DNA of 32,327 nt, from contig PPDH01000044.1 of the NCBI GenBank assembly GCA_002899765.1, positions 24,243 through 56,569 of the forward strand, in the 5' to 3' direction. Position numbers and translations under genes: made by a program. The notes under the pieces are model-generated. The model had not been told where the DNA came from. It was given only the letters and a program-made list of their open reading frames with translations, and did no database searches. Within the stretch, counting starts at the first letter, position 1. The number at the start of each line of letters is the position of its first letter. Shown here piece by piece: positions 22,842 to 29,186 of the stretch. Source of the stretch: Sulfurimonas sp. Lineage in GTDB: Bacteria > Campylobacterota > Campylobacteria > Campylobacterales > Sulfurimonadaceae.

Positions 22842-24059
22842 ATGAGAATTAAATCACTATTTCAAAACATGACGATAAAGCAGGCAGATATTTTTACCAT
22901 CACGGTTATATTTCTGCTTAGTATAGTTTTTGTCACTCTCTTTGTCGATGAGATGTACAATGATTATGAGAGGGCACTTGAGAAAAGCTCGCTTTTAAAG
23001 AGTGAAAATCTTGTAGATTCTAAATATGTAGAAGAGAATAAAAAAAAGTTAAAGTCACTTTTGGTAAGAACCGCTCTTGCCGTTGTTACGCTCTCTTTTA
23101 TTCTTTTTGCGATATTCCTTGGAATAAACAATCTCTTTAACAAGTTTTTACAAAGAGATACGCAGACGTTTTTGAACTTTTTTAAAAAAGCAGTCGACCA
23201 TGATGAGGCGATAAACCCCGATACTATATTTTTTCAAGATTTTAAAGATATGGTAGGTTATGCAAATGAGATGGTCAGTAAAATAAATGAGCAAAAAAAG
23301 AGTCTCAAAGAGCTTAACCTTGGGCTTGAAGAGAGGGTTAAGAAAAAAACAGCCGCACTTTTAGAGATTAATAAAAATCTAGAGGAGCAGAAGACCTTTT
23401 CTCAGGATTTGCTAAGAGCGCAAAAAGAGTTTTTACGCTATACGGTACATGAGACAAACACCCCTCTGAGCGTTATTCTGACTAGTATGGAGCTTTACTT
23501 GATGAATCATCCAAAAGAGCGGCAACTCTCTAAAATAGAGGCTGCGGCAAAAAATATTTTCAGCATTTATGATGATTTGAGCTATCTTGTTAAAAAAGAC
23601 CATATCGAGTATAAAAAAACTCCGATACATCTCAATAATTTTTTAAACAGCAGAATAGATTTTTTTAGAGATGTCGCAGAGTTTTCGCGTATAACATTTG
23701 AGTATATTCCCTTACATGAAGAGTTACATGTATATTTTAACGAGACAAAACTTCAAAGGATAATAGACAACACTTTGACAAATGCGATTAAATATACGCT
23801 GCCAAATGAGACTGTGTATGTAAAACTCTTAAAAAAAGGAGCATTTTTAGAGTTTTTAGTAAGCAGCAAATCAAAAATTATACAAGACACCGATAAAGTT
23901 TTTGAAGCGTACTATAGAGAAGAGAAAGGAAGAGACGGTTTTGGACTCGGGCTTAGACTTGTAAAGAGTATATGTGATGAAGAGAAAGTGGAGGTCGGCG
24001 TTGTCTCAAGCGACTCTATGACAACATTCAGCTATAAGTTTAAGTTAATGGGAGATTGA
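22842..24059 (+). CDS. Membrane sensor histidine kinase
   Basis: Sensor kinase of 405 residues paired with the response regulator that follows. Two membrane helices (about 16-35 and 76-96) enclose a short periplasmic loop of about 40 residues. A cytoplasmic linker and coiled coil (about 145-195) lead to the H-box VHETNTPLS with the phosphorylated His at about 203. The N-box DNTLTNAIKYT is at about 309-319, and the G-box GRDGFGLGLRLVKSI at about 363-377. ATG 22842 is preferred to the TTG at 22836, which overlaps the flank of the -10 box. The stop overlaps the regulator's ATG by one base. The signal is unknown; the small periplasmic loop argues against a large ligand domain. Confidence 0.9.
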   Translation: MRIKSLFQNMTIKQADIFTITVIFLLSIVFVTLFVDEMYNDYERALEKSSLLKSENLVDSKYVEENKKKLKSLLVRTALAVVTLSFILFAIFLGINNLFNKFLQRDTQTFLNFFKKAVDHDEAINPDTIFFQDFKDMVGYANEMVSKINEQKKSLKELNLGLEERVKKKTAALLEINKNLEEQKTFSQDLLRAQKEFLRYTVHETNTPLSVILTSMELYLMNHPKERQLSKIEAAAKNIFSIYDDLSYLVKKDHIEYKKTPIHLNNFLNSRIDFFRDVAEFSRITFEYIPLHEELHVYFNETKLQRIIDNTLTNAIKYTLPNETVYVKLLKKGAFLEFLVSSKSKIIQDTDKVFEAYYREEKGRDGFGLGLRLVKSICDEEKVEVGVVSSDSMTTFSYKFKLMGD

Positions 24060-24715
24060 TGAAGATACTGCTTTTGGAAGATGAGGTAATGCTTAATGAA
24101 TCAATATGCGAATATCTTCAGAGCGAAGGACATCAGGTAGAGAGCTTCTTTAATGGGATTGAAGCATTGGAAGCTATAAAAGATAATGCGTATGATTTGC
24201 TGATTTTAGACATCACAGTTCCTGGGCTTGACGGTCTGACTTTTTTAGAGAAGATTCATGAACTAAAGATACATGTACCTGCGATTTATATAAGCGCTCT
24301 AGTTGACATAGAGGATATTTCGCGCGCGTATGATTTAGGATGTAACGATTACCTAAAAAAACCGTTTCATCTAAAAGAGCTCTCGCTTAGAGTAAACAGA
24401 GTCAAAATCCTAGACACCACGCCAATAGTGCATCTCAGGCTCTCAAAAAACTACAGCTACGACCAAGAACACTCAACGCTGCTCTTTAACCAAGAGACGC
24501 AGATACTCACCAAAAGACAGTCTCAAATCATAGACCTGCTCTCAAGAAACCGCGGACGCATAGTAGATTTTGAACAGTTTCAAAACTACGTATGGAGCGA
24601 GCAGATAGTAGACAACGCAACCATCCGAGCCGAAATAAACCGCCTCAAAAAAAACCTAAAAGAGGACTTCATAATCAACGTCCGCGGGATGGGGTACATG
24701 ATAGACAAACCATAG
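24059..24715 (+). CDS. OmpR-family response regulator, 3' end used as integration site
   Basis: Two-domain regulator of 218 residues. The receiver domain has acidic residues in LLLEDE (about 4-9), the phospho-acceptor Asp at about 51 in LLILDITVPG, and the conserved Lys in YLKKPF near 102. The C-terminal winged helix (about 130-218) includes LTKRQSQIIDLL and a closing VRGMGYMIDKP. ATG 24059 has GGGAG at 24050-24054 and overlaps the kinase stop (TGATG). The last codons (ATG ATA GAC AAA CCA TA) are also the 17-bp repeat at 28340-28356, so the integrated element begins at its stop codon and leaves the protein intact. Confidence 0.92.
   Translation: MKILLLEDEVMLNESICEYLQSEGHQVESFFNGIEALEAIKDNAYDLLILDITVPGLDGLTFLEKIHELKIHVPAIYISALVDIEDISRAYDLGCNDYLKKPFHLKELSLRVNRVKILDTTPIVHLRLSKNYSYDQEHSTLLFNQETQILTKRQSQIIDLLSRNRGRIVDFEQFQNYVWSEQIVDNATIRAEINRLKKNLKEDFIINVRGMGYMIDKP
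24698..24714. repeat. Left attachment site (17-bp direct repeat)
   Basis: ATGATAGACAAACCATA, identical to 28340-28356. It covers the last five response-regulator codons and two bases of the stop codon. Flanking bases differ on both sides, so 17 bp is the exact match length. Confidence 0.85.
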
Positions 24716-24723
24716 CACCTTAT

Positions 24724-25812
24724 TTACAGGTGTCTAATTGAATTTGTACCGTTTTTGTACCGTTTTTCTAAAAAATCTATTTTCATCTTTTCCTGCTTAG
24801 GTATGTAATGAGTATAAACTTTTAGTGTTATGTCAAGGTTTTTATGTCCTAACATAGACGATACCCAAAGAGAATCAACCTTGTTATTTAACATCATACT
24901 TGCGAAAGTATGTCTAGTGTTATGCAGACTTCTTTTTTGTAAACCTACTTTATCTAAAATCTCTCTGTATATGTTATAAAACAAATAGTTATTAGCATAG
25001 TGAGACACTTTATCTGATTTTGTAAATACAAATCCATTCTGCAATCCAGTTTCTAGCCTTTGAGATTCAAAATATTTTTTAGCCATAGGCAACATCTCTA
25101 TATCTCTATTACTGGATGATGTTTTAGGCTCATTAATGAGACCTTTTGATAGAGTCTTAGATATGGATATTGTTTCTGTTTCAAAATCAATATCACTCCA
25201 TTTTAAAGCTAATATCTCTCCACTTCTTGCACCAGTAAAGAAAGAAATTCCTAAAAAGTTTTTATATTGACCTTTTGCTGATGATAATATCAAATCTATC
25301 TCATCAAGCGTAAAAGGTTTTTGCTCTTTTGGAACTTGATTGAACTTTGGAAGTTTTACAACACTAACGGGATTGGACACTATATCTTCATTTAAGATTG
25401 ATAAATCAAAGAGCTCTTTTAGTATAAACTTAGCACGATTAAGAAGAGTTCTGCTAAAACCCTCATCAGCTATACTTTGAAAAAAATCTTTTATGTGGAT
25501 AGGCTTCACATCTGTAATTTTTTTATCCTCGAAAAATGAGGATATTCTACGAAATGAACTTTCGTAAGTTTTAAGTGTATTTTGCCTTACATTTTTGCTT
25601 TTTTCAAGTATAATTTTGTCTAAGTAATTACTTACTGTAGGTGCTTTATAATCTTGACTAAACCCCAAGTTTTCATCTAAAGCACCGCTTTTAAATCTGT
25701 TAATTATGATGTTTCTATTGACCTTTGTATCTTTCAATTTTGAAGATTTAAATTTATCTCCAACACCATAATATAAGACACCGTTTCTGTTTTTAAATCG
25801 TAGTTTTTTCAT
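24724..25812 (-). CDS. Tyrosine recombinase (integrase) of the element
   Basis: Site-specific recombinase of 362 residues that would integrate and excise the element. An N-terminal arm-binding-like region (about 1-55, rich in Lys) is followed by a core-binding domain (about 58-150) and the catalytic domain. The catalytic residues are Arg196 in GARSGEI, His297 and Arg300 in HNTRH, His323 in LGHKNLDIT, and Tyr333 in KVYTH. The gene ends 9 bp inside the left repeat, the usual place for an integrase. Its last codons contain two copies of the TTTGTACCGT repeat (on the opposite strand). Its start overlaps the HTH gene by 20 bases. Confidence 0.93.
   Translation of the reverse strand: MKKLRFKNRNGVLYYGVGDKFKSSKLKDTKVNRNIIINRFKSGALDENLGFSQDYKAPTVSNYLDKIILEKSKNVRQNTLKTYESSFRRISSFFEDKKITDVKPIHIKDFFQSIADEGFSRTLLNRAKFILKELFDLSILNEDIVSNPVSVVKLPKFNQVPKEQKPFTLDEIDLILSSAKGQYKNFLGISFFTGARSGEILALKWSDIDFETETISISKTLSKGLINEPKTSSSNRDIEMLPMAKKYFESQRLETGLQNGFVFTKSDKVSHYANNYLFYNIYREILDKVGLQKRSLHNTRHTFASMMLNNKVDSLWVSSMLGHKNLDITLKVYTHYIPKQEKMKIDFLEKRYKNGTNSIRHL
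24743..24763. repeat. Left pair of TTTGTACCGT repeats (candidate integrase arm sites)
   Basis: TTTGTACCGT occurs at 24743-24752 and 24754-24763. The same ten bases occur twice, in the same orientation, at 28212-28221 and 28224-28233 near the other end of the element. The spacing of 11-12 bp puts the copies about one helical turn apart. They also encode part of the integrase C-terminus. Confidence 0.6.
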
Positions 25813-26089
25813 ACACCAAACCCTTGTCCAGTTGTAATCTAAACTCTATAATAGATTCTTCTATAAACACAAGTATTTTACCGTTTTTTCGATAAAAATG
25901 CTTACCTTCAATTAGCAAACCAATGCCCATATATCTATTTATCGTGCTTTCTGATTTGTTTAAAAATTTAGCCACTTCTTTTTTAGTAGTTAACGAAGGA
26001 GTGAATTTTTTAAGTCTCTCTTCCATAGCTTCAATCTTGTTTAGCAGCTTTGGGATAAGCTCTAAATTTTCAAATGCTCTTAAATCCAT
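25793..26089 (-). CDS. Helix-turn-helix protein, possible excisionase
   Basis: A 98-residue protein. A coiled-coil-like N-terminus (about 8-28) is followed by a MerR/excisionase-type helix-turn-helix (about 33-75) with TKKEVAKFLNKSESTINRYM and a wing reading FYRKNGKILVF. Small proteins of this type next to integrases often direct excision or regulate the integrase promoter. Its ATG overlaps the Rep stop by one base (TAATG on the minus strand), and its 3' end overlaps the integrase start by 20 bases, so the three genes are coupled. The excisionase role is inferred from position. Confidence 0.75.
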   Translation of the reverse strand: MDLRAFENLELIPKLLNKIEAMEERLKKFTPSLTTKKEVAKFLNKSESTINRYMGIGLLIEGKHFYRKNGKILVFIEESIIEFRLQLDKGLVYEKTTI

Positions 26090-27123
26090 TATGCAGCCTT
26101 TTTATACTCATTTATAGTATGTACTTCTATGTTTTCATTACGCATATATAAAAGCTCTTTATCATCCCATATCTCCATTATTTTGTCACTATCAATAGTC
26201 ACTAATACTTTTAAACTGTTACCTTTTCTAACTTGTGTTAGAGCATAGAGAGTGAATCTATGATGTAACAATCTATGAAGATACAGAGGAGCGGTTGAGC
26301 GACTGGCACAAAATCTGTTTATACGGTTTTTTATATACCACGCATTAAGATATTCATCGTCTTGTGTTATCTGTTCTTTTGATTTTGGGAGCGTTTTATT
26401 GATATATTTCATAATATAACTTTTAGCATTTTGTATGTCTTTTACAAATTTATTTGATTTTGAAAAATAGAAGCGATTAAAAGCTTTTTCAACTTTTTCT
26501 ATCCTATCAGCTGGAATAAATAAGAGTATATGAGCGTGAGGAGTTCCGTTTTTGTGAGGTTCGTTAACTCTGTAATACATTCTTTTGTTTTTAGGCAAAT
26601 CTTTTAGTGACCTGTCTTGTCTAAGTTTAGCCCACATCTTGGTTAATATCTTTGTAGCTTCTCTTGGCTCTGCTCCGTTATATTTTGGATTTTTAATAAG
26701 TGTAGTATCATACTCTGACCTTTGCTTCATCGGATGAAACTCGCTAGGCAGAGTTATAGTCAAAAATACGGGAGTAAGATTTGAGCTTTCTGCTTCTCTT
26801 TGCAGTGTGTCTATGCGGTTTTGAATTTCGGCATAATATCTTTGTGGATTATGGTTTGACGATATAACGCACTCTTTGAGTTTAAGAGTGTTCCCCGTAA
26901 CTTTGTCTTTTATATAACCATACTCTAAAAAGTCATTTTGCTTTTGGATTTTAAGTTTTACCGACACTAAATCACTTTGTGATACTCCGTACTTTTTTAA
27001 AATGTCCACATCTTTTTTATAATTAGTCAAGGAGCGATTATCTCGCAAATCCTTCCGTGCGTCTCCGCACGGAGAGTTTTGCTCGATATCGCTCATATCA
27101 CTACAACAATATGATGAAGTCAT
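26089..27123 (-). CDS. Rolling-circle replication initiator (HUH endonuclease, gpA/inovirus type)
   Basis: Replication initiator of 344 residues, expected to nick one strand at the element's origin and start rolling-circle replication. Three HUH-superfamily motifs are in order: FLTITLPSEFH (about 120-130), the metal-binding NGTPHAHILLF with His196 and His198, and KSYIMKYINK (about 234-243) with Tyr236 and Tyr240 as nucleophile candidates. RFCASRSTAPLYLHRLLHH (about 270-288) resembles the C-terminal segment of P2 gpA-type proteins. The N-terminal 35 residues are poorly conserved in appearance and overlap a GC-rich hairpin. A 1-base overlap with the HTH gene follows. The exact family (phage gpA or inovirus Rep) needs a profile search. 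Confidence 0.85.
   Translation of the reverse strand: MTSSYCCSDMSDIEQNSPCGDARKDLRDNRSLTNYKKDVDILKKYGVSQSDLVSVKLKIQKQNDFLEYGYIKDKVTGNTLKLKECVISSNHNPQRYYAEIQNRIDTLQREAESSNLTPVFLTITLPSEFHPMKQRSEYDTTLIKNPKYNGAEPREATKILTKMWAKLRQDRSLKDLPKNKRMYYRVNEPHKNGTPHAHILLFIPADRIEKVEKAFNRFYFSKSNKFVKDIQNAKSYIMKYINKTLPKSKEQITQDDEYLNAWYIKNRINRFCASRSTAPLYLHRLLHHRFTLYALTQVRKGNSLKVLVTIDSDKIMEIWDDKELLYMRNENIEVHTINEYKKAA
27054..27073. other. GC-rich hairpin inside the rep gene, candidate replication origin
   Basis: TCCGTGC (27054-27060) and GCACGGA (27067-27073) pair perfectly around the loop GTCTCC. It stands out in an AT-rich element and lies in the 5' part of the rep coding frame, where gpA-type phages keep their origin. 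A nick site in the loop is a guess. Confidence 0.4.
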
Positions 27124-27124
27124 T

Positions 27125-27307
27125 TTATACTTCTTGTAAGGCTTTTATTTCTGGAAACGTGCCTTTTAGATAATCCGTTATGATAGTGTAATCATCTAAA
27201 TTTAGTGAGCCGTGAGCATTTAACCCGTCTAAGATTTTGACTAGGTTTTTTATTTTTGACTCTAAAGCAGTATTTGAGTTTTTAAACTCTTTTTTTGTAT
27301 CATTCAT
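27125..27307 (-). CDS. 60-residue ORF upstream of rep
   Basis: I do not recognise this protein. It is predicted to be all-helical and charged (MNDTKKEFKNSNTALESKIK... ending FPEIKALQEV). Its stop lies 1 bp before the rep ATG, which favours a real, coupled gene. It begins after a 192-bp gap. A copy-control or accessory role for Rep is possible, but nothing in the sequence shows it. Confidence 0.55.
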   Translation of the reverse strand: MNDTKKEFKNSNTALESKIKNLVKILDGLNAHGSLNLDDYTIITDYLKGTFPEIKALQEV

Positions 27308-27339
27308 TGTTTCTTTCCTTTAGTGAGGTTTTGAAATAC

Positions 27340-27374
27340 CATAGGGAGTTTTCCGCCAAGATTCACTCTCTATG
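27340..27374. other. Imperfect hairpin in the gap between element genes
   Basis: CATAGGGAG (27340-27348) pairs with CTCTCTATG (27366-27374) with one G-T pair and a 17-base loop containing CCGCC. It lies in the 192-bp space (27308-27499) between the 60-residue ORF and the ssDNA-binding-like gene, which holds no other ORF. It could be an origin, a terminator-like structure without T-tract, or chance. Confidence 0.35.
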
Positions 27375-27499
27375 TGTTATGATTAGCTCCATTAGTAGCA
27401 ACATAAAAGAAAAAATATAATGTTCTATTTCAAACATCTTTCTAACGCCCTCATTTCATTCGGTTGTTCCCACATTTTTTATAGATAAAAAATCGTGGC

Positions 27500-27769
27500 T
27501 TAATTACTTACGAAGAAACTTACAGTAGATTTAGACATAAAACTACATGGGACTTGTATTTTTTTGCCTACTTTGTCTTTGTATTCAGATATTTTTTCAA
27601 TAGGAACAGATATATCCTGCATCTCCTGTTTAATACTTCCATTTGACAGTTCTGTATCTACTAAAACTTGTAATACTGGTTTGCCTTTTGTAACCTCTCC
27701 GGTTTCTTTGTCTTTGAAGTCCGGTTTAACATATGTTGATAGCAACATTCCTTCGATTATTACTTTCAT
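27500..27769 (-). CDS. Small beta-rich protein, possible ssDNA-binding protein (inovirus G5P-like)
   Basis: An 89-residue protein with alternating short strands: MKVIIEGMLLSTYV, KGKPVLQVLVDTE, QDISVPIEKI, GKKIQVPCSFM and TVSFFVS, compatible with an OB-fold. Length, the ETGEVTKGKP loop, and its position with an HUH Rep in a small element resemble filamentous-phage ssDNA-binding proteins. No residue-level signature is decisive, so the function is an inference. Its start overlaps the ribbon-helix-helix gene stop by 4 bp, so the two are translationally coupled. Confidence 0.5.
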   Translation of the reverse strand: MKVIIEGMLLSTYVKPDFKDKETGEVTKGKPVLQVLVDTELSNGSIKQEMQDISVPIEKISEYKDKVGKKIQVPCSFMSKSTVSFFVSN

Positions 27770-28107
27770 TTGTCATCCTCTAATAATGAATTCAGAGCAT
27801 TTATTTTACTTTTCATAGTATCTTTCATTATTGCCTCATCTGGATCAGTTGGATAAAAACCTGTTAATTGATGGTAAAGATAGTCTCTATAATCAACCAA
27901 AAAAGATTTTGTTTTGTTTAGTTCATTTCCGCAGTCATCATTGATTAATGATTGTAAAGTAACGACAATCAATGAATTCATTGAAACTGACTCTTTTTCA
28001 GCCAATGACTGAATATCTTCTTTTAAACTAGCTGGTAGTTTTAAACTAAAAGGCACTTTCTCCTCCTCTTGTGATTTAACAGTCGCAATAATTTTTTTCC
28101 TATTCAT
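27766..28107 (-). CDS. Ribbon-helix-helix (Arc/MetJ-type) regulator
   Basis: A 113-residue protein. The ribbon VPFSLKLPASLKEDI (about 18-32), followed by a helix-turn-helix pair SLAEKESVSMNSLIVVTLQS (about 34-53), is a classic ribbon-helix-helix DNA-binding fold. A helical C-terminal part (about 60-113) follows. It is the first gene of the element's minus-strand operon. A perfect 16-bp palindrome lies 25 bp upstream of its start (28132-28147), so autoregulation and control of element replication are likely. AAGGAG precedes the ATG. Confidence 0.8.
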   Translation of the reverse strand: MNRKKIIATVKSQEEEKVPFSLKLPASLKEDIQSLAEKESVSMNSLIVVTLQSLINDDCGNELNKTKSFLVDYRDYLYHQLTGFYPTDPDEAIMKDTMKSKINALNSLLEDDK

Positions 28108-28131
28108 AGGAACTCCTTGTAAAGTGATTTG

Positions 28132-28147
28132 ACATTCATATGAATGT
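28132..28147. promoter_or_regulatory. Perfect 16-bp palindrome, likely repressor operator
   Basis: ACATTCATATGAATGT is fully self-complementary and lies just upstream of the ribbon-helix-helix gene. Such dimeric regulators bind palindromes at their own promoters. Nearby AT-rich TTTTATAAC on the minus strand could be the -10 region, which the operator would occlude. Confidence 0.6.
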
Positions 28148-28211
28148 TATAAAATGATACCTAAATAGAATTTAAATGTCAAATTATAAATAGAAATCAA
28201 TATTGATACCA

Positions 28212-28233
28212 TTTGTACCGTATTTTGTACCGT
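28212..28233. repeat. Right pair of TTTGTACCGT repeats (candidate integrase arm sites)
   Basis: TTTGTACCGT at 28212-28221 and 28224-28233 match the pair at 24743-24763. The gap between the ribbon-helix-helix gene and the right repeat (28148-28339) holds no ORF. These repeats are its only clear content. Confidence 0.6.
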
Positions 28234-28339
28234 TATTTGATTATGAAGAAGTGGAAGATTAGCTTAAATTGTTTATAGAATAGCTATTAATGAGTAGATA
28301 TTTAGGCTATATGCTTATCACTCATTGTTTCGTTTTGAA

Positions 28340-28356
28340 ATGATAGACAAACCATA
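28340..28356. repeat. Right attachment site (17-bp direct repeat)
   Basis: Identical to 24698-24714. It is followed by AC and then the REP-like region. An empty site would rejoin the response regulator end to the sequence from 28357. Confidence 0.85.
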
Positions 28357-28370
28357 ACAACTCTCTCTCG

Positions 28371-28391
28371 TTCCCACGGTTTCCGTGGGAA
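28371..28391. repeat. REP-like palindrome, left outer
   Basis: TTCCCACGG (28371-28379) and CCGTGGGAA (28383-28391) form a perfect 9-bp stem with a TTT loop, preceded by CTCTCTCG. The right outer copy (29135-29157) is its inverse relative and is partly degraded. Confidence 0.7.
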
Positions 28392-28416
28392 TGCATATAA
28401 AGTTAAAGCGACAAAA

Positions 28417-28450
28417 AGTATACACTCCCACGCTAGAGCATTGGAGCGAG
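28417..28450. repeat. REP-like repeat, left inner
   Basis: It begins AGTATACACTCCCA (28417-28430) and ends GGAGCGAG. The right inner repeat at 29081-29114 starts with the same 14 bases and ends GGGAGCGAG. The internal stem here has two mismatches. Confidence 0.65.
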
Positions 28451-28456
28451 AAGAAA

Positions 28457-28475
28457 ATATTGCAATTTGCAATAT
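28457..28475. promoter_or_regulatory. 19-bp palindrome upstream of the transposase gene
   Basis: ATATTGCAA (28457-28465) and TTGCAATAT (28467-28475) flank a single central T. It lies 50 bp before the transposase ATG and could be an operator. There is no T-tract to make it a terminator. Confidence 0.4.
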
Positions 28476-28524
28476 AATTGTCTATAGCTTTGAAAATGTT
28501 TTATACTCATAAAAAGGAAAATTT

Positions 28525-29067
28525 ATGGGTAGAAGCAGATATAAAATTTTTGAGCCTACATATCCTCACTTTGTAACATGTACAGTTCTTCATTGGATAC
28601 CGATATTTACAAGAGTTGAAACTACCGATATTGTTTTTCAAAGCCTAAAATATCTTCAAATTGTAGATAATCTAAAAATATTTGCTTATGTAATACTTGA
28701 AAATCATCTGCATTTAGTAGCTCAAAGTGATGATATAGCTAAAACCATGTCAAAGTTTAAATCTTTTAGCGCAAGAGAAATTATAAAATATCTCAAAGAG
28801 AAGAATGCCCAAACGATTTTAGAACAACTAGCGTTTTATAAAAAAGCTCACAAAAGTGACAGAGAATTACAACTTTGGCAAGAGGGAATACAGCCTAAAC
28901 TTATAGTCGATGAAAATATGATGATGAGCAGAATAAATTATATTCACAATAACCCCGTAAAACGAGGATATGTAGATGAAGCGAAGCATTGGCGTTATAG
29001 GCGTTATAGTAGTGCTAGGGATTATGAGGGGATGGTTGGTTTGTTGGAAATTGAGAAGCTATTTTGA
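28525..29067 (+). CDS. REP-associated tyrosine transposase (Y1, IS200-like fold)
   Basis: Single-stranded DNA transposase of 180 residues in the TnpA-REP (RAYT) family, which acts on REP hairpins. The N-terminus GRSRYKIFEPTYPHFVTCTV is typical. The metal-binding His pair is in ENHLHLVAQ (about 69-77). The Y1 nucleophile is probably in the helix before YIHNNPVKRGYVDEAKHWRY, a RAYT hallmark near 145-155. AAGGAAA precedes ATG 28525. REP-like repeats flank it on both sides, which supports the family call. It lies just outside the 3.6-kb element and is probably a domesticated host gene, not a self-moving element. Confidence 0.9.
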   Translation: MGRSRYKIFEPTYPHFVTCTVLHWIPIFTRVETTDIVFQSLKYLQIVDNLKIFAYVILENHLHLVAQSDDIAKTMSKFKSFSAREIIKYLKEKNAQTILEQLAFYKKAHKSDRELQLWQEGIQPKLIVDENMMMSRINYIHNNPVKRGYVDEAKHWRYRRYSSARDYEGMVGLLEIEKLF

Positions 29068-29080
29068 TGGGTTTAGATAA

Positions 29081-29114
29081 AGTATACACTCCCATACTGA
29101 AGCATGGGAGCGAG
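29081..29114. repeat. REP-like repeat, right inner
   Basis: It shares AGTATACACTCCCA with 28417-28430. CTCCCAT (29089-29095) pairs perfectly with ATGGGAG (29104-29110) around an 8-base loop. It begins 13 bp after the transposase stop. Confidence 0.65.
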
Positions 29115-29134
29115 TTTTGAGATGTCTGCATTTT

Positions 29135-29157
29135 CACGCGGAGCATGGGAACGAGAG
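29135..29157. repeat. REP-like repeat, right outer (degraded, inverted)
   Basis: The sequence contains GCATGGGAACGAGAG. Its reverse complement matches the CTCTCGTTCCCA start of the left outer repeat. The second stem arm is eroded. It faces the left outer copy in inverse orientation. Confidence 0.55.
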
Positions 29158-29186
29158 AACTCTACATGTATGAGGTTGTTTCAGTC

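Follow-up and report, generated by a model that had tools for sequence, protein, structure and literature searches.

Satellites of filamentous phages (inoviruses) have been encountered in print in few instances, namely RS1 and, by its title, one plasmid satellite. RS1 derives from CTXphi itself and uses the host XerCD. The plasmid, to go by the title of Schmid et al., is reportedly an autonomous replicon packaged by an inovirus. Passages of PMC11389934 portray RS1, the CTXphi satellite, as exploiting a filamentous helper and as counteracting the phage repressor. Here we describe a small element integrated in a stretch of 32,327 nucleotides (the window: Sulfurimonas sp., assembly GCA_002899765.1, contig PPDH01000044.1, positions 24,243 to 56,569), for which we propose a role similar to that of RS1. 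The element differs from RS1 in having its own integrase and its own clade of replication initiator proteins (Reps), and its family integrates, in contrast to the plasmid of Schmid et al., with which it is compared by title alone.

Two further systems share part of this organization. As far as passages of PMC10803314 tell, PICMI is likewise a minimal integrated satellite with an integrase, six genes in its prototype and a position beside a regulator gene; the prototype lies downstream of fis, an AlpA-like regulator is present, a DUF3987/DUF5906 primase is required and virulent phages serve as its known helpers. The window element differs in carrying an HUH Rep and a protein resembling single-stranded DNA-binding proteins (SSBs), with no DUF3987/DUF5906 primase among its six open reading frames (ORFs). 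The streptococcal integrative mobilizable elements with Rep_trans relaxases are also integrated and also employ a rolling-circle initiator, but it belongs to another Rep family and their helper is conjugative, according to passages of PMC7563843. Closest are the inoviruses of Sulfurimonas and other Campylobacterota, which have in common with the element the HUH Rep superfamily, a small SSB-like protein and a tyrosine integrase, and in some cases also a ribbon-helix-helix (RHH) gene and a second hairpin. They differ in size (L045, L049 and L051, the three for which boundaries are known, measure about 9-10 kb) and in possessing Zot, secretin and, as identified by eye, pIII-like and coat-like genes, whereas the element is devoid of Zot and secretin.

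We interpret the window element as an integrated, apparently intact member of a Campylobacterota family, and most likely as an integrating satellite of an inovirus, a reading to which we assign a probability of about 0.5. Its boundaries, empty site, gene set and Rep family, and the mobility of its family, are established by comparison. It is a real and mobile element whose parts are ordinary and whose make-up is, as far as the open literature shows, new: no published account of such a family was found there (subscription papers and preprints lay outside the coverage), in keeping with an earlier note on this DNA that knew of no campylobacterial family so composed. According to passages of PMC6813254, a large inovirus survey detected inoviruses through the pI/Zot gene, and because it relied on that gene, coatless relatives would have been invisible to it.

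Boundaries, target gene and empty site

The element is delimited by an exact direct repeat, ATGATAGACAAACCATA, of 17 bp (23 nt at 91%), at 24698-24714 and 28340-28356, and the unit so enclosed measures 3,642 bp. A repeat of this length around some 3.6 kb had been claimed in the earlier note; it proved exact at both positions and exceeds what chance produces, the longest comparable repeat in 500 first-order Markov sequences with matching composition being at most 14 bp (mean 10.2). The features at and around the two ends are as follows.

24059..24715, plus strand: target gene, an intact OmpR-family response regulator (Response_reg and Trans_reg_C)
24698..24714, unstranded: left att core, 17-bp direct repeat (repeat search and Markov control)
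24742..24767, unstranded: candidate integrase arm sites, two copies of TTGTACCGT at 24744 and 24755, putative function
28211..28237, unstranded: candidate integrase arm sites, two copies of TTGTACCGT at 28213 and 28225, putative function
28340..28356, unstranded: right att core, 17-bp direct repeat; the flank outside it corresponds to the G004 empty site

The left core forms the last codons of the response-regulator gene, most orthologues of which align across residues 1-218. The target is thus the 3' end of a protein-coding gene, as first described, and a tRNA search of the window returned no tRNA gene; this choice of target does not extend to the family as a whole, since other members occupy tRNA genes.

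Comparison with relatives supports these boundaries. We searched for the response regulator in 100 genomes of the genus (59 had a match with an E of at most 1e-60) and fetched 30 loci. An integrase match was present downstream, within the 1.5 kb or less that was read, in four of the 30 (G000, the 45-contig source bin of the window, 98.5% complete with 3.1% contamination; G024; G074; G076) and in none of the other 26; in G024 and G076 it is no more than a short fragment. Among the genomes compared, G004 has the regulator most similar to that of the window (94% identity). There the gene continues directly into the sequence found past the right repeat of the window, and the RAYT gene that comes next is the one of the window, at 94%. 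By this alignment G004 holds, base by base, the empty site for which the earlier note had suggested a search in relatives. Another occupant of the same response-regulator end, L030 in G074, carries a gene set of the same kind between 19-bp repeats 3,632 bp apart; its integrase is 85% identical to that of the window and its Rep only 46%.

Immediately within both ends lie TTTTGTACCGTTTTT-like repeats, two copies per end, which add to the earlier description. Equivalent terminal repeats occur at both ends of L021, L023, L030, L040 and both copies in genome G240, and we infer that the pairs serve as integrase arm sites. Sequence resembling the left arm was also seen by eye right after the regulator gene in L064 (G039) and L062 (G091), with no detectable integrase; these may be remains of lost copies. 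To the right, outside the boundaries, the element is adjoined by a RAYT-like Y1 transposase gene (28525-29067, Y1_Tnp below the cut-off) amid inverted REP-like palindromes (28364-29158 of the window); G004 has a RAYT gene as well.

Gene set of the element

Six ORFs, all of them open and all on the minus strand, make up a cargo-free element with the transcription order RHH, 89-aa OB-fold protein, 60-aa ORF, Rep, helix-turn-helix (HTH) protein and integrase. The single strand agrees with the earlier note; its statement that the genes mostly overlap does not hold, for a gap of 192 nt (27308-27499) contains two hairpins.

24724..25812, minus strand: tyrosine integrase, 362 aa (PF00589, E 2.9e-21; phrog_1, E 1.2e-65)
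25793..26089, minus strand: HTH protein of 98 aa, a probable excisionase (phrog_2655, excisionase, E 0.0012; HTH_17 under the Pfam cut-off, E 0.0027)
26089..27123, minus strand: HUH Rep of the P2 gpA superfamily, 344 aa, with two tyrosines (HAH; YIMKY) (PF05840 Phage_GPA, E 8.4e-27)
27125..27307, minus strand: 60-aa ORF without assigned function (no Pfam match at E 1)
27338..27375, minus strand: hairpin, loop TCTTGGCGGA, a candidate double-strand origin at which the Rep would nick, at the same position ahead of rep in relatives
27442..27499, minus strand: hairpin and tail (CCACGATTTTTT..GTGGGAACAACCGAATGAAATGAGGGCGTTAG), candidate single-strand origin or packaging signal, partly common to inoviruses
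27500..27769, minus strand: 89-aa OB-fold protein, probable single-stranded DNA-binding protein (structure model; no Pfam match)
27766..28107, minus strand: RHH protein, probable regulator, 113 aa (Arc/RHH families below the Pfam cut-off; phrog_582, Arc-like repressor, E 5e-7)
28132..28147, unstranded: 16-bp palindrome ACATTCATATGAATGT ahead of the RHH gene, a possible but weak operator (palindrome search)

The set of integrase, HTH protein, HUH Rep, possible SSB and RHH regulator that had been read from the letters is matched by Pfam, PHROG and the structure model, weakly so for the HTH and SSB-like proteins. The Rep residues H196, H198, Y236 and Y240 are invariant in an alignment of 20 Reps; we take the two histidines to be the HUH motif and the two tyrosines to be catalytic. 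The HTH gene is found again between rep and int in relatives, and the 60-aa ORF recurs at 46-87% identity in six other loci (L022, L023, L024, L037, L040, L041). The AlphaFold2 model of the 89-aa protein (mean pLDDT 85.8) has SSBs as its top matches in the PDB, with TM scores of 0.4-0.5 and a best E of 0.04, and mixed matches in a viral structure library, none better than E 0.016; hhalign aligns it with two proteins that occupy the SSB position in inoviruses (E 8e-5, 61% probability). It is thus probably a single-stranded DNA-binding protein, as far as modelling can tell. A conserved operator palindrome for the RHH protein was considered and rejected, none being present ahead of the RHH gene in the eight relatives examined.

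None of the six ORFs has a virion-family match in Pfam and PHROG profiles, no profile search having been aimed at coat proteins, and no transfer gene was recognized among them, in line with the coatless, transferless gene set first described. They likewise include neither a terminase nor a capsid gene. This absence speaks against a tailed or tailless phage as the helper; the domain that the Rep shares with P2-like phages would point to a P2-like one. The Rep is also closer to the larger Reps of Campylobacterota (35-46% at best, accompanied by Zot where whole loci were read) than to those of named phages (24-31% among the 20 matches listed). Even with a phage-like element of about 9 kb in G097, which has an endolysin and bears one of the hairpins discussed below, on its side, we regard such a helper as improbable.

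Relatives, mobility and kinship with inoviruses

Relatives of the Rep occur in 23 of the 100 genus genomes and at 19 loci of the genome_contigs collection, several of which duplicate places in the genus genomes. Ten of the 100 carry the small type, defined by a Rep identity of at least 50% (G000, G015, G023, G036, G038, G066, G074, G081, G085, G097), and in all ten the core genes adjoin the Rep, with an interruption by a contig end in G023. Across the phylum a Rep at E 1e-60 or better was found in 26 of 298 genomes: identity or tree assigns G000, G015 and G240 to the small type, L258 and L264 lie outside the tree, and the others have larger Reps. Direct repeats by the integrase, 3.6-7.0 kb apart, bound the window element and L021, L023, L024, L025, L027, L030, L032, L033, L040 and L041, although that of L021 is only 14 bp, the chance maximum of the Markov control. 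L029 and L037 yielded no direct repeat, possibly because they lack one end.

The complete genome G240, from another host family, holds two copies that are 99.5% identical over 3,873 aligned bp. They sit in tRNA-Leu(cag) and tRNA-Leu(tag), between the same 24-bp repeat 3,768 or 3,766 bp apart, and have a 25-bp arm-like repeat at both ends. Two near-identical copies in two tRNA-Leu genes show that a cargo-free member is mobile. A terminal-repeat check for a free circle, made on a single small-element contig (L034), was negative.

Of the six larger members bounded by repeats, five have cargo of a defence-like or toxin-antitoxin kind; the list also gives the sixth, L041, and L029, for which no repeat was found.

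L021: ParE
L025: putAbiC
L027: AAA protein (AbiLi-like) and DUF4276
L032: BrnT and AAA protein
L033: PIN
L041: three genes without family
L029 (left end not located): GmrSD_N protein

How do these elements relate to the inoviruses? Zot and secretin were found by tblastn in none of 22 stretches with small-type Reps and in all ten filamentous-prophage loci (L042-L051), the queries being drawn from four of those ten loci and several of the 22 stretches ending at contig edges. These ten loci, with their larger Reps, are filamentous prophages or parts thereof. In a tree of 59 Reps a branch with support 100/99 separates all 19 small Reps from the 40 larger ones, not all of which are proven inoviral; most phylum loci were read with flanks of only 1.5 kb. 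Given this single clade, the small elements are no random remnants. This also bears on the notion of a decayed inovirus that has lost its coat genes: the kinship of Rep, SSB-like protein and integrase to inovirus genes would fit it, but with all ORFs open, and the coatless set found repeatedly in several host families, we hold it to be very improbable. Among viral contigs the single Rep protein retrieved no small element, and a search with an alignment gave ten loci, all with Zot.

The small elements and the inoviruses also have DNA in common. The integrases of L024 and L037 are 63-72% identical to, and group with, those of inoviruses L044 and L050; the RHH gene of L023 shares DNA with that of inovirus L044 (77% over 177 bp); and tRNA-Leu(gag) is the site of both L041 and inovirus L051. 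DNA has been exchanged between the two groups, to judge from these comparisons. A common target of L024 and L037 with the inoviruses related by integrase was ruled out, as the flanks differ. Another type of element was seen in L054, L055 and L057, with a GPA-like Rep of about 380 aa, an SSB-like protein of 83-84 aa and a membrane protein of about 425 aa (cut at the contig end in L057).

Hairpins, helper and routes of export

The hairpin ahead of rep is the candidate nick site. Its loop, TCTTGGCGGA, is found in the window element, L022, L027, L030 and L032, and with one change in L040. The inverse loop TCCGCCAAGA occurs in L021 and L041, and with one change in L024, L025 and L037, so that among close relatives the candidate origin loop is inverted relative to the stem. 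The remaining small elements have pre-rep hairpins with more divergent loops. A loop scan did not find the pre-rep loop in the G240 copies, and none of its matches in the ten inovirus loci forms the stem.

The second hairpin, with a conserved tail, sits behind the SSB-like gene and was found in 7 of the 19 small-element stretches scanned and in 4 of the 10 inovirus loci. Two types can be distinguished, type 1 in the window element, L021, L022, L040 and inovirus L049 (89% identity over 45 bp between window and L049), and type 2 in L023, L024, L037 and inoviruses L043, L044 and L051. The hairpins of L024 and L051 are 95% alike over 41 bp yet the Reps are distant in the tree, so the hairpin does not track Rep kinship. 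Across the 100 genomes a covariance model of type 2 gave 11 places, all at E 2.6e-7 or better, of which eight are in inoviruses or putative satellites (six being training sequences; one place in G067 lies just beyond the fetched stretch) and three elsewhere. The type-1 model gave its five training places, a cross-match in the putative satellite of G015 (1.5e-4) and two weak matches (0.006, 0.009). A packaging signal was favoured at first and was weakened by the type-2 matches in G097, G054 and G090; because these three are not known inoviruses, we think from the hairpin's distribution that a single-strand (strand-conversion) origin is more likely. Rfam returned no match, and a loose hairpin scan of eight viral-contig inoviruses did not find the hairpin. 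Among the matches listed for loose patterns across viral contigs, one was a clear inovirus, L212, whose Zot is 100% identical to that of L051; the others were chance-like, with weak integrase matches in four loci and a weak Zot match (24%) in L217.

What could be the life cycle of such an element? As an integrating satellite of an inovirus, it would leave the chromosome when the integrase, aided by the HTH protein in the role of excisionase, recombines the 17-bp att core by way of the terminal arm sites. The HUH Rep would then copy the resulting circle after nicking the hairpin just upstream of rep, the displaced strand would be coated by the SSB-like protein, and the RHH protein would hold the system silent. 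The single strand would then be exported in particles of the helper filamentous phage. Since G004 holds both the empty site and the type-1 inovirus L049, an L049-like phage would be the first-choice helper candidate. Also in favour of the satellite reading, Zot is present in 13 of the 100 genus genomes and VirB4 in only two.

Several observations weigh against this satellite reading. No inovirus Zot was found in the bin of the window, where a helper had been thought worth seeking. Small elements and inoviruses reside together in two of the ten small-element genomes (G081, G097) with 1.3 expected, or in 3 of 12 with 1.6 expected if G024 and G076 are included on account of their integrase fragments; as regards a helper that arrives by infection, these counts speak neither for nor against. 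The SSB and excisionase assignments are weak, the inverted nick-site loop of some relatives would flip the strand produced, and three type-2 hairpins lie outside known inoviruses, in a phage-like element of G097, an island of G054 and a contig end of G090. Neither an excised circle nor particle export is among the features observed.

The same observations leave room for a self-sufficient integrative rolling-circle plasmid that needs no packaging helper, but excises, multiplies and re-integrates in the cell and spreads by natural transformation, vesicles or chance transduction. The G240 copies show a cargo-free member that moved within a genome, co-residence with inoviruses is not enriched, and the second hairpin would fit the single-strand origin of any rolling-circle replicon. 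Such a plasmid leaves unexplained the repeated sharing of DNA with inoviruses in integrase, RHH gene and hairpin subtypes, and we consider it a serious though unlikely alternative. The kinship of the SSB-like protein and the DNA in common with inoviruses lead us, between the two readings offered in the earlier note, to lean towards a satellite over an autonomous element.

The strand might also leave through the type IV secretion system of a conjugative element, with the Rep acting as relaxase at an oriT. Streptococcal integrative mobilizable elements do employ rolling-circle initiators as relaxases, according to passages of PMC7563843, and the second hairpin is also found beside DUF932 and Rad52-like genes in L234. 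Against this, only G026 and G067 among the 100 genus genomes have VirB4 (PF03135). Both lack a complete small element, though a Rep fragment of 27 residues (67% identity) stands at a contig edge in G026. This distribution mildly disfavours conjugative mobilization. Nor was a transfer gene recognized among 18 cargo proteins, the part of the cargo scanned with Pfam. We rate this route as rather improbable.

If the satellite reading is extended to the whole family, we would tentatively, and with less than even confidence, propose a Campylobacterota-wide group of integrating filamentous-phage satellites with their own Rep clade and integrases, in which single-stranded DNA hitch-hikes by way of a copied helper hairpin and anti-phage cargo repays the host, as an inovirus counterpart of PICIs and P4-like satellites. 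A widespread family of this sort, recognizable by its core, att sites and defence cargo, would provide filamentous phages with a layer of satellites such as tailed phages have, and would do so in a genus with so little VirB4. The inversion of the loop within an otherwise constant origin stem would imply, moreover, a switch among relatives in which of the two strands is packaged. The core of 3.6 kb would also constitute a very small natural integrating vector.

Three places that carry the type-2 hairpin deserve description in their own right. The phage-like element of G097 (L236 10415 to L233 ~9332) spans about 9 kb and has an M15-type endolysin; four other scanned proteins have no Pfam match, a phage search with its 462-aa protein gave no match, and it is possibly an undescribed small phage. 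The island of G054 (L234 5226-11114) lies by a tRNA cluster and contains AbiEii, DUF932 and Rad52-like genes. Finally, a region of G067 (C1, ~1.994-2.027 Mb, partly L043) has type-2 hairpins every 12-14 kb or so and two equal-scoring zot genes, and resembles a series of inovirus prophages arranged in tandem.

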